A stretch of DNA of 64,000 bases. It comes from a virus. The position numbers were made by a program, and so were the translations under genes. The DNA lies in IMG/VR virus record IMGVR_UViG_3300045971_000577, positions 124,001 through 188,000 of that record; one strand, 5' to 3'. Positions 23,845 through 32,258 of this stretch are shown in pieces; the stretch's first letter is position 1; every line of letters starts with the position of its first letter. The notes under the pieces are model-generated. The model saw nothing but the letters and a program-made list of their open reading frames with translations. It had not been told where the DNA came from and ran no database searches.

Positions 23845-24150
23845 TTATAGTTCTTCGAATGTAGCAGTTAACGGGAATCCATTTGCTCTAGAATAAGCAA
23901 CGGTCTCAGTGGTTTTCTCTTCTGCAATCTCGCGTGTGTATGGCGAGCCTGCAATACCTTGCCCTTGGACGTGGATCATCTTGGTAATCTCCACAGCATC
24001 CTGCATGCTCTTATGAAAGACGCCGACAAGTACAGAAATCACAAACTCAAATGTGGTTGAATCGTCATTATGAAGGATTACCTTGTACATCTTTGGCTCG
24101 ACGACGCGGATGGTCTCATCAATCTTTTCGATTACTTCAATATCAGACAT
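23845..24150 (-). CDS. clpS: ClpS-like protease adaptor
   Basis: 101 residues from ATG 24150. The longer frame would start inside its own promoter, and GGGA precedes this ATG. YKVILHNDDSTTFEFVISVL, the HVQGQGIAGSPYTREIAEEK stretch and the end ANGFPLTATFEE follow ClpS closely. ClpS binds N-degron proteins and, in bacteria, passes them to ClpA. The window has ClpX but no ClpA, so it may work with host ClpA, redirect it, or pair with the phage ClpX. Confidence 0.92.
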   Translation of the reverse strand: MSDIEVIEKIDETIRVVEPKMYKVILHNDDSTTFEFVISVLVGVFHKSMQDAVEITKMIHVQGQGIAGSPYTREIAEEKTTETVAYSRANGFPLTATFEEL

Positions 24151-24178
24151 TGTTAAATCCCGGGTAGTAGTAGACCTA

Positions 24179-24207
24179 AGTTTACTGTACCCGGACCCTT
24201 GTGTCAA
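24179..24207 (-). promoter_or_regulatory. Early sigma70-type promoter for clpS
   Basis: TTGACA, 17 bases, TAAACT on the minus strand, 28 bases before the ATG at 24150. Confidence 0.78.
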
Positions 24208-24212
24208 GAAAC

Positions 24213-24626
24213 TTACTTGATGGTAATTAGCTTGGGCTGAGCCTCAAGCGGCACATTCTTAACAAATGTGATAGTCAAAATACCATCTTCCATCTCTGCA
24301 CCACCTACATCAAAGAATTCGGCAATGCGGAATTGCTTTGAGAACGAACGGTTGGCGATTCCACGGAATTGATACGTAGAATTCGGATCAATTGCTTTCT
24401 CACCCTTGATAGTGAGCAAACCTTGATGTTCTTCTAGCGTGATTTCCGCTTTCTTGAATCCTGCGACAGCCAATTCGATGTAGAATTCATTGTCAGAGAC
24501 TCTAACAATGTTGTGCGGTGGATAGTTGTTATTTTGAATGTGAAAATCCCTGAATACGGGACCGAAGCCTACAGTAATAGATTCGAGTTGATCGAATAGA
24601 CGTGAGATGTCGTTCTTAGGTAGCAT
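24213..24626 (-). CDS. Hsp20 small heat-shock protein
   Basis: 137 residues from ATG 24626, with AAGGAGT before it. The alpha-crystallin domain runs from about YPPHNIVRVSDNEFYIELAV to the end, with the GLLTIKGEK strand and the GILTITFVK strand that closes the domain. The start LFDQLESITVGFGPVF resembles IbpA. Such chaperones hold unfolded proteins; phage versions are known from T4-like phages of cyanobacteria, where they are virion-linked in some reports (from memory). A late box lies 99 bases upstream. Confidence 0.92.
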   Translation of the reverse strand: MLPKNDISRLFDQLESITVGFGPVFRDFHIQNNNYPPHNIVRVSDNEFYIELAVAGFKKAEITLEEHQGLLTIKGEKAIDPNSTYQFRGIANRSFSKQFRIAEFFDVGGAEMEDGILTITFVKNVPLEAQPKLITIK

Positions 24627-24676
24627 GATTTTACTCCTTTTAAGCAAGTTTAGATGTGCTTTACCTTAGTACAGTT

Positions 24677-24725: not shown

Positions 24726-24733
24726 TATTTATC
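24726..24733 (-). promoter_or_regulatory. Late promoter box GATAAATA
   Basis: Overlaps the stop of the PEP-CTERM gene and precedes the Hsp20 gene. Confidence 0.6.
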
Positions 24734-25445
24734 TCCGATCAATAGATCGTCTATATTTTAGACCACCCATTGCAAATAATCCTATTATTATCAGAAATAC
24801 AGTAGATGGTTCGGGTGCTGCGGGGAGGGAAACAACGGAGTGGCAACACCAGCTGTGTGTATCAGAATAGTAAAATGGCGAAGCAATAATCGAATATTGA
24901 GGTACACCGTTATGTGGCGCTGGTGATATACCTGACTTAGCCTGAAAAGAATCTAAGGGAATTGGCGCAGATAGTGATAAAATTATTGGAGTAATTCCAA
25001 CAGATGATATGCTTTCGTGAATTCCACCTGGCGGAAGAATCCACCCAGTATTCTTCAATCGAGCAACTCTACTAAGGTTTCCACAAACAGTTGGCACCAC
25101 AATGCAATAATTCTCTTCGCAATATACCATTCCGCGTTCTTTGGATACACGAGTCCATTTATCTCGAGTTACACGCTGACAAACACGATTCTTACCAAAA
25201 TGCATATCCCTGAGATCAGTATATTCTTCTTTGCCGATGATACTATCTTTTGTGATATCAACTATGTCATCATATTTTTTAGAATTTAGTCGCTTTTCTA
25301 GCTTATCTCGAATATTTTTTGGAATATCTATATAATCGTGAACTGCCACTGATACATCACCCGTAAATCTATTTGCGCCGGGCTGATCCCACTGACATAC
25401 CGGCGACACAATAACCGATGCCGCAAATAGAATTTCTGATAACAT
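24729..25445 (-). CDS. Secreted protein with PEP-CTERM sorting signal
   Basis: 238 residues. A signal peptide covers about residues 1-17 (MLSEILFAASVIVSPVC). The middle has DMHFGKNRVCQRVTRDKW (residues 80-97) and further cysteines at 109, 114 and 121. The C-terminus is PAAPEPSTVFLIIIGLFAMG, then YRR: the PEP motif, a membrane helix and basic residues of exosortase substrates. The MHFG stretch matches a PEP-CTERM family of betaproteobacteria that I recall. The host exosortase would cut and sort it to the cell surface. This is almost certainly a host-derived gene; its role for the phage is unknown, and surface alteration against other phages is one idea. Confidence 0.88.
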   Translation of the reverse strand: MLSEILFAASVIVSPVCQWDQPGANRFTGDVSVAVHDYIDIPKNIRDKLEKRLNSKKYDDIVDITKDSIIGKEEYTDLRDMHFGKNRVCQRVTRDKWTRVSKERGMVYCEENYCIVVPTVCGNLSRVARLKNTGWILPPGGIHESISSVGITPIILSLSAPIPLDSFQAKSGISPAPHNGVPQYSIIASPFYYSDTHSWCCHSVVSLPAAPEPSTVFLIIIGLFAMGGLKYRRSIDRR

Positions 25446-25448
25446 CTA

Positions 25449-25709
25449 TCAATATTTCTTGTCTTTATGCCAATGACCGGATTCAATCATTTCTTCGACA
25501 GTACGTTCCCAACGCTTACGAGCTTGTTTCTTCATACGCTGTTTGGCCACGGCAGGTTTCTCGTAGGCCATTCGATCTTTTACTTCCTTTAATAGACCAG
25601 TGTCTTGAACCTTCTTCGACCATGTACGCAGGGCGCGGCCAAAATCCTCGCCCCTAACTTCGACTGTGATTCCCTGCTGCTTTTTTCCGTCTCTGAACTT
25701 ATTAGACAT
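25449..25709 (-). CDS. rpsU: Ribosomal protein bS21 homolog
   Basis: 86 residues from ATG 25709, overlapping the clpX stop by eight bases. GITVEVRGEDFGRALRTW, then TGLLKEV and MAYEKPAVAKQR, match bS21: the V-x-E ... A-L-R-x-W/F core and YEKP at 49-52. The C-terminal tail is a little longer than usual. bS21 sits near the anti-Shine-Dalgarno end of 16S rRNA, so a phage copy could bias ribosomes towards phage mRNAs. Confidence 0.9.
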   Translation of the reverse strand: MSNKFRDGKKQQGITVEVRGEDFGRALRTWSKKVQDTGLLKEVKDRMAYEKPAVAKQRMKKQARKRWERTVEEMIESGHWHKDKKY

Positions 25710-26937
25710 TATTTGCTCGTTTCTTTGTTTTGTAAACATGTTGTGTTATACCATTTTCGTCAACAAATATTTTGTTGACTCCTTCCTTATGTAATCGTGG
25801 TAGTATAAACTGAGTAGCCTGGAGATCCTTCTCCATTACCGCACGCAATCCTCTAGCACCTACCTTTTGCTTCAGACATTGTTCAGCTACATTCAGTAGG
25901 TATTTATCGTCAAACTCTAAAGTGACACCATCAATTTTGAACAGTGCTCTGAATTGGCTTACGATGCTATTTTTAGGTTCTCTTAGAATACGAAGCATCA
26001 TATCCGGTGTTAGGTCGTCAAACACAACAACCACCGGGCAGCGGCCCACAAACTCCGGGATCAATCCATATTTAATAAAATCTTCGGAACCCGCCGATCT
26101 GATTGTATCAGAAAATGGAGTCTTTGTACTCAGTGTTGCACCAATACCGATGCTTGTTTTGGAACGACTCTTTCGAATTACTTCATCAAGCCCGACAAAG
26201 GAGCCACTGCACACAAAAAGGATGTTCTTTGTATCAAAATCAATGATATCGTCGTGCAACTCAACTTTTATGGATGTACCTTCAATAAGTTTCAATAATG
26301 CTTGCTGTACACCTTCTCCGGAGACGTCTCTGTTCGCAGAGGCTGTATCATTCTTTCTACTTTTCTTGTCAATTTCATCGATAAAGATAATACCACGCTG
26401 AGCACGCTCAATATCATCATCTGCTTCCATAATTAATCGCTTGATTAGATTTTCAACATCTTCTCCAACGTAGCCCGCTTCAGTCAATGAGGTTGCATCG
26501 GCAATAATGTATGGTAAATCAAACATCTTGGCTACAGTTTTCACTGTAAGAGTCTTTCCGCTGCCAGATGATCCCACAATAAGCAAATTAGACTTATCGA
26601 TTTCTGTCTTTGACTTACTGTTAATACGTTTGTAGTGATTATAGACTGCAACTGAAATTGCTTGCTTTGCAGAATCCTGTCCTACAACATATTCGTCAAG
26701 ATATTTTTTTATCTGTTCCGGGGTGTAGATCTTATCTTTCTTTTTCTTCTCAGGTTCTGCTTTTTCTTCAGTATGCAATATTTCGTGACTAACATCTACG
26801 CATTCATTGCAAATATACAGATTGGCTCCGTTTACAATAGGACCTTCGACTAGATGTTTTACCTGATTCCTACCTTTACCACAGAAAGAGCAATTGATTG
26901 CTAATTTCATAACTGGTGCGTCGTCATTTTCAATCAT
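25702..26937 (-). CDS. clpX: ClpX ATPase with altered RKH and IGF loops
   Basis: 411 residues; E. coli ClpX is 424. Zinc domain with C16, C19, C43, C46. Walker A GSSGSGKT (122-129), pore loop GYVG (155-158), Walker B IIFIDEID (183-190), sensor II GARGLR (360-365). Two changes stand out. Between LLKLIEGT and NILFVCSGSF there are 16 residues without the usual PPQGGRKHP loop. The ClpP-docking tripeptide IGF is IGI (263-265, in TSIGIGAT). The first loop helps choose substrates and the second docks on ClpP, so the phage unfoldase is probably tuned to its own targets and its own ClpP. Confidence 0.95.
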   Translation of the reverse strand: MIENDDAPVMKLAINCSFCGKGRNQVKHLVEGPIVNGANLYICNECVDVSHEILHTEEKAEPEKKKKDKIYTPEQIKKYLDEYVVGQDSAKQAISVAVYNHYKRINSKSKTEIDKSNLLIVGSSGSGKTLTVKTVAKMFDLPYIIADATSLTEAGYVGEDVENLIKRLIMEADDDIERAQRGIIFIDEIDKKSRKNDTASANRDVSGEGVQQALLKLIEGTSIKVELHDDIIDFDTKNILFVCSGSFVGLDEVIRKSRSKTSIGIGATLSTKTPFSDTIRSAGSEDFIKYGLIPEFVGRCPVVVVFDDLTPDMMLRILREPKNSIVSQFRALFKIDGVTLEFDDKYLLNVAEQCLKQKVGARGLRAVMEKDLQATQFILPRLHKEGVNKIFVDENGITQHVYKTKKRANNV

Positions 26938-30459: not shown

Positions 30460-30786
30460 TTAGTAGATGTTGTGCTTTTGTTTTAGGTTATTAAACTCTT
30501 GGTTATATGTTGGCGAGAATAATTCCTTATTTAGGATTCTAACCAAATCCTGGAAGTCGTTTTTCAACACAAGTGTATCACTTCTGAGATTCATTAGTTC
30601 TACTGCCTGAAACTCGCTGGTCCTAATCAATCCCTTCAATATTCCGGGATTGGCCATATTGCCGCGTAGTTTTGATGCAACGCATTCCTGCTCAGTCAGC
30701 TCTTTTAGTTGTTCTACACTCAACGAACCGAAGAGTGTATCCAGAAGATCAATCTTCAGGAGTTGGTCATTTGTAAGTGTAATCAT
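30460..30786 (-). CDS. Hypothetical phage protein
   Basis: 108 residues, helical, leucine-rich (LTNDQLLKIDLLDTLFGSL). Coupled by ATGA to the thymidylate synthase gene. No family recognised. Confidence 0.68.
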   Translation of the reverse strand: MITLTNDQLLKIDLLDTLFGSLSVEQLKELTEQECVASKLRGNMANPGILKGLIRTSEFQAVELMNLRSDTLVLKNDFQDLVRILNKELFSPTYNQEFNNLKQKHNIY

Positions 30787-32258
30787 ACGGCCATCGGTGG
30801 TTTGTTGGTTACATCGGGATATGGGTCATATCCGATAAGCTCAATGTCTTCCCACTGCAAAGATAGTATATCTTCGAATGTAGGTAGTTCCTTCTTGATG
30901 TTTAGTGTAGGCAACTTACGTGGAGTGCGCTCCAACATCTGCTGTACCATATCCATTTGGTTCTGATAGATGTGTACGTCCCATCCCATGTATACCAAAT
31001 CGCCCGGCTCCATACCCAAGTGCTTCGCAAAGATATGATTCAGTAGGGCATAAGACGCGATGTTGAACGGTAAGCCATAAGGCACGTCGTTACTACGCAT
31101 TACGAAACAGGTGTTTAGTTTGCCCTTATTTAGGGTAAAATCGCCCTCTACACTGTGCATATGCATCATGTGGCAGGGCGGCAGTGCCATCTCATGTAAT
31201 TGTCCAGGATTCCATCCCGTTACCACGTGCCTGCGTCCGTACGGATCTTTCTTGATACCGTCAATCAGTTCTTTGATTTGATCTACCCCTAAATGCTCAG
31301 TAGTCTTTTCTGGAATAAAAATAGATGAATATAACAGTTGAGTTTTTAGATCAACCCACTGGCACGTTTTTTCACTATAATATCCTTTGCCGGCAATATC
31401 TTTATCTAATGAATATTTCTTCCAATTAGTTATTTTTTTATCCCATCCCGGCAATGTCTGTGCATCGATAACGAAGTTAGAAAATAATAACCATCGAGCA
31501 GACACATATATATTTTTTCTACCGTAGTTAGGATATGAATGATCTTTTTCATCATAACATCTCGATATCATTGCATCCCACATTGGGCGAAGTTTTTTCC
31601 ATAGTTCCGGGTACGCAGACTTTACGGTTATATCACCGGAACATGCTACACCTGCCACATTGGGGAAATATGGATCGTATATCTCACCTTTATCGATATT
31701 CTGCTTACGAACATTTGCTACATACCCGGTCTTATGAAACTTTACATCAAAAAATAACTTATTTCCATTACCCCTGATTTCTTTTGTTACGGTATATTGT
31801 CCACAAGAGTTTGATGTGAACTCTTTCCCGACATATCCATGAACATCTGAAGAAGTATCTATTATGATATCTTTTGTAAATGGTGTATCAATACCCGGAG
31901 GTATTTTTGCAAAACCATCAAAGTTTCTCCATTGATGCGAATAACCATATCCTAAACTTCCAGAAGGCAAATGGTTTAGGCTGCGCTTGTCCAGGAACTC
32001 ACGCGAGGTGTTTCCCTTCCAGATGTTGATGTTTTTAGCTTCTAAGAGCTTGGTCTGTGTTTCTCCACGTAGGAAAAACATAGTCTCTTCGAAAGCAATA
32101 CGCAAAGGTGTTTTGCGTGTAGTTTGGATGGGAAAGCCTTGCGCTAAATCCCAGCGTAGAAGTCTGCCAAATACAGCTCGAGAGCCAACACCTGTTCGGT
32201 CTGGTTTATCGACGCCATTTTCGACGACATCCTTTAAAAGTTCAATATAGTTTTGCAT
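30783..32258 (-). CDS. thyA: Thymidylate synthase ThyA with in-frame endonuclease-like insertion
   Basis: 491 residues. Residues 1-115 and 323-491 together form a normal ThyA of about 284 residues. The N-terminal part has DRTGVGSRAVFG and ends at HQWRNFDG. The second part starts at GVDQIKELIDGIKKDPYGRR and holds the catalytic C362 in ALPPCHMM, then SNDVPYGLPFN. The enzyme methylates dUMP to dTMP. The 207-residue insertion is described separately. Whether the fusion is active, or the insert is removed, cannot be told from sequence. Confidence 0.93.
   Translation of the reverse strand: MQNYIELLKDVVENGVDKPDRTGVGSRAVFGRLLRWDLAQGFPIQTTRKTPLRIAFEETMFFLRGETQTKLLEAKNINIWKGNTSREFLDKRSLNHLPSGSLGYGYSHQWRNFDGFAKIPPGIDTPFTKDIIIDTSSDVHGYVGKEFTSNSCGQYTVTKEIRGNGNKLFFDVKFHKTGYVANVRKQNIDKGEIYDPYFPNVAGVACSGDITVKSAYPELWKKLRPMWDAMISRCYDEKDHSYPNYGRKNIYVSARWLLFSNFVIDAQTLPGWDKKITNWKKYSLDKDIAGKGYYSEKTCQWVDLKTQLLYSSIFIPEKTTEHLGVDQIKELIDGIKKDPYGRRHVVTGWNPGQLHEMALPPCHMMHMHSVEGDFTLNKGKLNTCFVMRSNDVPYGLPFNIASYALLNHIFAKHLGMEPGDLVYMGWDVHIYQNQMDMVQQMLERTPRKLPTLNIKKELPTFEDILSLQWEDIELIGYDPYPDVTNKPPMAV
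31293..31913 (-). mobile_element. Homing-endonuclease-like domain inserted in thyA
   Basis: About 207 codons, in frame and without a stop. It has GYVGKEFTSNSCGQYTVTKE, TGYVANVRKQNIDKGEIYDP and WDAMISRCYDEKDHSYPNYG, then LDKDI and CQW. This pattern is that of HNH/AP2-like phage endonucleases that normally stand alone. It lacks the N-terminal Cys/Ser and C-terminal His-Asn of an intein. It looks richer in A+T than the flanking thyA parts. An intron with a continuous frame is a less likely alternative. Confidence 0.75.

Follow-up and report, generated by a model that had tools for sequence, protein, structure and literature searches.

The MHFG locus

The window, i.e. the whole stretch of DNA analysed (64,000 nucleotides), belongs to a 369,145-base virus record. 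On its minus strand, a gene of the MHFG family of PEP-CTERM proteins lies in an operon-like array between the bS21 and hsp20 genes, an interval referred to below as the slot. The features are as follows.

23845..24207, minus strand: ClpS gene, further downstream in this array (PF02617)
24213..24647, minus strand: Hsp20 gene, downstream edge of the slot (PF00011), kept in the related contigs L056, L057 and L058
24693..24725, minus strand: strong RNA hairpin just 3' of the MHFG stop codon (folding energy)
24729..25445, minus strand: gene of the MHFG-family PEP-CTERM protein, 238 aa (NF038119 match)
24729..24818, minus strand: residues 210-238 and stop codon, PEP-CTERM tail with PEP at 24807-24815, membrane helix and basic end (TIGR02595 and AF2 helix)
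24819..25052, minus strand: residues 132-209, variable low-confidence linker (AF2 pLDDT; the length differs among relatives)
25053..25397, minus strand: residues 17-131, conserved Cys-rich core with CxW..PG, MHFG, C, W, E and YC...C...P.VC.N.S (alignments A2 and A3, and AF2)
25398..25445, minus strand: residues 1-16, probable short hydrophobic N-terminal export signal without a basic n-region (translation; the N-termini of relatives are alike)
25449..25739, minus strand: bS21 gene, upstream edge of the slot (PF01165), kept in L056, L057 and L058
25702..26937, minus strand: ClpX gene, further upstream in this operon-like array (PF07724, PF06689)

The preliminary description placed the gene between those of Hsp20 and bS21, and both neighbours are indeed matched by Pfam families (PF00011, PF01165). 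The ATG is found three bases after the bS21 stop codon (TGA at 25449). Immediately 5' of it there is an in-frame TAG, and thus the start of the protein is fixed. The hairpin (MFE -22.6 kcal/mol, z -4.06 for a 51-nt stretch) separates the MHFG gene from hsp20.

Organisation of the MHFG protein

The protein is matched by the NCBIfam model NF038119 (MHFG family PEP-CTERM protein) with E=2.1e-60 and 205.2 bits at a cut-off of 100; the match starts at residue 15 and consists of two stretches. Residues 210-233 are matched by the PEP-CTERM model TIGR02595 (20.4 bits, cut-off 16). In the HMM check proposed in the preliminary description, these two models exceed their cut-offs, and the Pfam PEP-CTERM model PF07589 stays below its own (16.7 bits, cut-off 20.7).

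Phage and bacterial members of the family share the MHFG region and the C-x-W..PG start; their linkers differ in length, and most members have five cysteines. Positions C17, W19, P22, G23, M81, W97, E103, P118, C121 and N123 are invariant in an alignment of 36 sequences, and the mean column identity of the core is 51% (alignment A5). The MHFG-type middle with cysteines, as originally described, is thus borne out by the family score and by the conserved Cys-rich core.

In the AF2 model, pLDDT is mostly at least 90 at about residues 31-130 and mostly 50-61 in the linker (residues 132-209). The PEP motif is followed by a predicted C-terminal helix at residues 215-237, and the protein ends with LKYRRSIDRR, i.e. 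with a basic end. The C-terminus claimed from the sequence alone, with its PEP motif, a membrane helix and a basic end, is supported by TIGR02595 and the model. A PDB fold search with the core produced nothing below E=0.25, and the best viral model was A0A1B0UZY4 (E=3e-3). Since no solved fold resembles the core, no biochemical activity can be named for it.

The N-terminus is a weaker signal peptide than had been claimed. The 16 residues ahead of the first cysteine (MLSEILFAASVIVSPV-C), as read from the translation, are hydrophobic; the segment is short and has no lysine or arginine, and thus no basic n-region. Similar short N-termini are observed in most phage and bacterial members of the family. 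As bacterial members share it, the short non-basic N-terminus is a family trait and not a sign of decay. In the viral homolog L024, the N-terminal signal is almost absent.

The slot in related phages

ClpX is 73% identical on three related phage contigs (L056, L057 and L058), one of which is a 362,810-base record. The gene order common to these contigs is 586-aa protein - clpX - bS21 - hsp20 - clpS - 342-aa protein. Between bS21 and hsp20, L056 and L057 have almost nothing, and in L058 this space is taken up by about 3.4 kb with other ORFs (L058:8203-10794). By eye, the latter include two ORFs with signal-like N-termini and one encoding a 308-aa caspase-like protein. No PEP-CTERM match was found in the relatives bearing the slot, including the 363-kb one where it is empty; control genomes were silent too.

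The view that the gene is cargo and not part of the phage core agrees with a slot that is empty or otherwise filled in related phages. The MHFG gene is best read as optional cargo in a swappable bS21-hsp20 slot, as judged from this comparison of gene content.

Other genes of the phage

The phage has baseplate, virion, DnaB and thymidylate synthase families. Its ribonucleotide reductase, which is class II-like, is closest to those of uncultured phages of 642-735 kb. The thymidylate synthase ORF (window positions 30783-32258, minus strand) contains an intein-like HNH endonuclease region according to PHROG matches. Seven PKD_4 (PF18911) domain matches were observed in the phage record, at 213-216 kb, 305.7 kb and 320.4 kb.

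Two further PEP-CTERM genes adjoin each other at about 37.0-38.0 kb of the record. The first encodes a 75-aa PEPxxWA-CTERM protein with hardly anything beyond a signal peptide and the tail. The product of the second has a length of 259 aa if read from the earliest possible start codon; counted from the ATG with which it gains an ordinary signal peptide, it has 246 aa:

L011:10246-10986 (about 37.2-38.0 kb of the phage record), minus strand: gene of the 246-aa PEP-CTERM protein

Both proteins have ordinary signal peptides (MIKKLLTSLALAVATLSASA and MKKSLLVLMLLAASAAQA). The GC content of the two genes is 0.60 and 0.57, compared to 0.50 in the surrounding 19 kb. A gene of a papain-family cysteine protease (PF00112, E=1.2e-11; L011:9151-9885, minus strand) adjoins this pair.

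The 246-aa protein contains the pattern FCVD...MQLAIW. Its match to the thioester domain model TED (PF08341) scores 12.9 bits, below the cut-off of 22; among six homologs, four have a TED match at E<=1, the best being 0.006. Cys77 and Gln130, candidates for the Cys and Gln of a thioester, are invariant in six homologs; in five bacterial homologs picked from the search, Cys77, Gln130 and Trp134 are invariant. The protein may be a covalent (thioester) adhesin.

The exosortase family PF09721 was searched across all 369,145 bases of the phage record and yielded no match. No RpoN-type site TGGCAC-N5-TTGC was observed near the MHFG gene. An RpoN promoter was rejected as a candidate, as matches with one mismatch in the window occur at chance level, and those with two mismatches in L011 are below chance.

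Viral homologs

Homologs of the MHFG protein were found on at least 17 other IMG/VR contigs, 14 of them with alignment A1 and at least three by scanning for tails of the form PEPxxWA[L/M/V]M. The former contigs span 9.8-342.6 kb. Scans with a single sequence returned nothing from viral or genome contigs, and the homologs surfaced only with an alignment. The pattern scan of IMG/VR returned at least 119 stretches; among the matches listed, 100 of 123 are located at the C-terminal end of an ORF, together with a hydrophobic stretch and a basic residue, at least three of these being MHFG proteins. PEPxxWA-CTERM proteins seem frequent on viral contigs (L070-L188, among the matches listed, where host flanks are possible).

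A PEP-CTERM-like tail is present in all 17 other viral homologs. That of L022 reads PEL instead of PEP and is not matched by TIGR02595 at E<=0.01; in L025 the match to this model is below the cut-off. None of the 14 viral contigs with MHFG homologs that were searched contains an exosortase. Several of these contigs have genes of phage families adjacent or close to the homolog. In two separate viral contigs, L018 and L019, the MHFG gene lies between genes of a PurZ-like adenylosuccinate synthetase and a metallophosphoesterase. It is found near a tRNA nucleotidyltransferase gene in L016 and beside a tail protein gene in L020. In the core tree, the 9.8-kb contig L021 clusters with a Rubrivivax sequence. 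Some short contigs, such as L021, may be bacterial and are weaker evidence, since IMG/VR contigs can carry host flanks.

The pairwise dN/dS of the viral homologs L094 and L173 is 0.33 at dS 0.60. Two other viral pairs have dN/dS of 0.28 and 0.22 at dS of 1.7-1.9, which is near saturation. These values (0.22-0.33) suggest constraint, the L094-L173 pair being the only unsaturated one.

No convincing match was produced by tblastn with the window protein and four homologs against 50,697 phage records, or with the window protein against 72,556 plasmids. The virus searches found no member of the family in an isolated phage.

Bacterial homologs and the host

A genome scan identified 24 bacterial loci with MHFG homologs. 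By title, the carriers are Duganella, Pseudoduganella, Rubrivivax, Scleromatobacter and two uncultured proteobacterial MAGs; the bacterial homologs found are Burkholderiales. All 23 checked bacterial genomes with an MHFG gene have an exosortase. Thus the betaproteobacterial, exosortase-bearing host group named in the preliminary description is retained, although by the indirect route of these homologs and genomes.

At 13 Duganella loci, the MHFG gene is flanked by rpsB-tsf and map-glnD. Since this is a fixed chromosomal place, a prophage origin of the Duganella copies is excluded. The family is rare in the order: in an even draw of 399 genomes, with limited candidates scored per genome, the reference genome was the only one where NF038119 exceeded its cut-off, and a profile of the core alone, similarly limited, gave the same outcome. 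The core tree intermixes viral and bacterial sequences, its well-supported branches requiring at least three changes; therefore the gene has been exchanged more than once.

Possible role during infection

After export, PEP-CTERM proteins are held by a C-terminal helix, and exosortase is believed to process them at the PEP motif (PMC1569441; PMC9850573). The system is linked to exopolysaccharide, extracellular polymer and floc formation (PMC1569441, PMC9850573). By analogy with these proteins, we infer export, sorting by the host exosortase and a surface location for the MHFG protein. Since neither the phage nor related viruses carry an exosortase, the host's own export-and-sorting machinery is probably used.

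Taken as a whole, the phage protein is probably a substrate of the host exosortase, carried as slot cargo and modifying the envelope of the infected cell. The gene would have been inserted as optional cargo between the bS21 and hsp20 genes. During infection, the protein would be exported via the Sec pathway, its C-terminal helix anchoring it in the inner membrane. The host's exosortase would then recognise the PEP motif, and the processed protein would be released to the outer surface or the exopolysaccharide layer, where its disulfide-rich core would alter the envelope. The benefit to the phage is a matter of conjecture: it could be a superinfection block, or changed exopolysaccharide or aggregation.

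The architecture would also suit a superinfection-exclusion factor retained in the membrane: a signal at the N-terminus, a globular periplasmic domain, a linker and a membrane helix with a basic end. In this case, the periplasmic core would keep the DNA of competing phages from entering, and exosortase processing would be incidental; exclusion genes also often sit in optional cargo slots. However, PEP or PE is kept in every viral and bacterial homolog seen, and a plain anchor would not need this motif. Moreover, the bacterial copies reside at a fixed housekeeping locus and not in prophages, and we regard such a factor as unlikely. One could also imagine a decoy, abundant phage PEP-CTERM proteins occupying the host exosortase, so that host display falls, exopolysaccharide thins and the progeny escape. 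That the phage has three PEP-CTERM genes, one of them for only 75 aa, agrees with it, as does the lack of a phage exosortase. However, the tail alone would suffice for a decoy, whereas the core is well conserved (51% in A5, with dN/dS 0.33 in the least saturated pair), which makes this very improbable.

There is even less reason to expect a passenger gene, taken up from the host and useless to the phage. It is indeed missing from related phages, but it is intact and recurs on many viral contigs with low dN/dS. Its GC content (0.40) fits that of its neighbours (0.39 for clpX, 0.43 for the window), and so its acquisition is not recent.

Starting from the preferred reading, a host-exosortase substrate that modifies the envelope, we tentatively propose a generalisation, for which the chances are somewhat below even: some large phages of exosortase-bearing bacteria would routinely carry swappable PEP-CTERM cassettes that use the host exosortase pathway to remodel the infected cell's surface, one of the proteins being perhaps a thioester adhesin.

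If the proposal is true, a surface-sorting pathway of Gram-negative bacteria is exploited by phages; most of its substrates lack a known function, and the finding would provide a handle on what exosortase substrates do. It would also connect infection by phages with the behaviour of exopolysaccharide, flocs and biofilms, and offer a genetic marker for the hosts of uncultured huge phages (exosortase-bearing and, in this case, probably Burkholderiales).

Comparison with known systems

The MHFG family itself is already known. In the literature searched, mostly papers available without subscription, we found neither its carriage by a phage nor a report of phage-encoded PEP-CTERM substrates.

The bacterial members of NF038119 (from Duganella, Pseudoduganella, Rubrivivax and other Burkholderiales) resemble the phage protein in the whole-length match, the Cys/Trp pattern, the MHFG motif, the linker, the tail and the short N-terminus. 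In alignment A3, the phage protein is 30-37% identical to the bacterial copies over the full aligned length and 43-50% over the core. The difference is in the location: the phage gene belongs to the clpX-bS21-hsp20-clpS array of a 369-kb phage, whereas that of Duganella is at rpsB-tsf / map-glnD.

With the PEP-CTERM/exosortase (EpsH) system the phage protein shares the PEP motif, the membrane helix, the basic C-terminal end and, probably, an N-terminal export signal of a kind. Proteobacterial PEP-CTERM genes are usually single and have an RpoN-type upstream motif (PMC1569441). Unlike most of them, the MHFG gene is embedded in an array; the phage has substrates only, and the MHFG gene has no RpoN-type promoter near it.

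The PepA-type floc-forming PEP-CTERM proteins of Aquincola and Zoogloea (PMC9850573) differ from the phage protein in the mature domain, as the model NF033554 matches only its tail (12.3 bits, cut-off 80). However, the sorting tag is common to both, and an effect of the phage protein on aggregation or exopolysaccharide is plausible.
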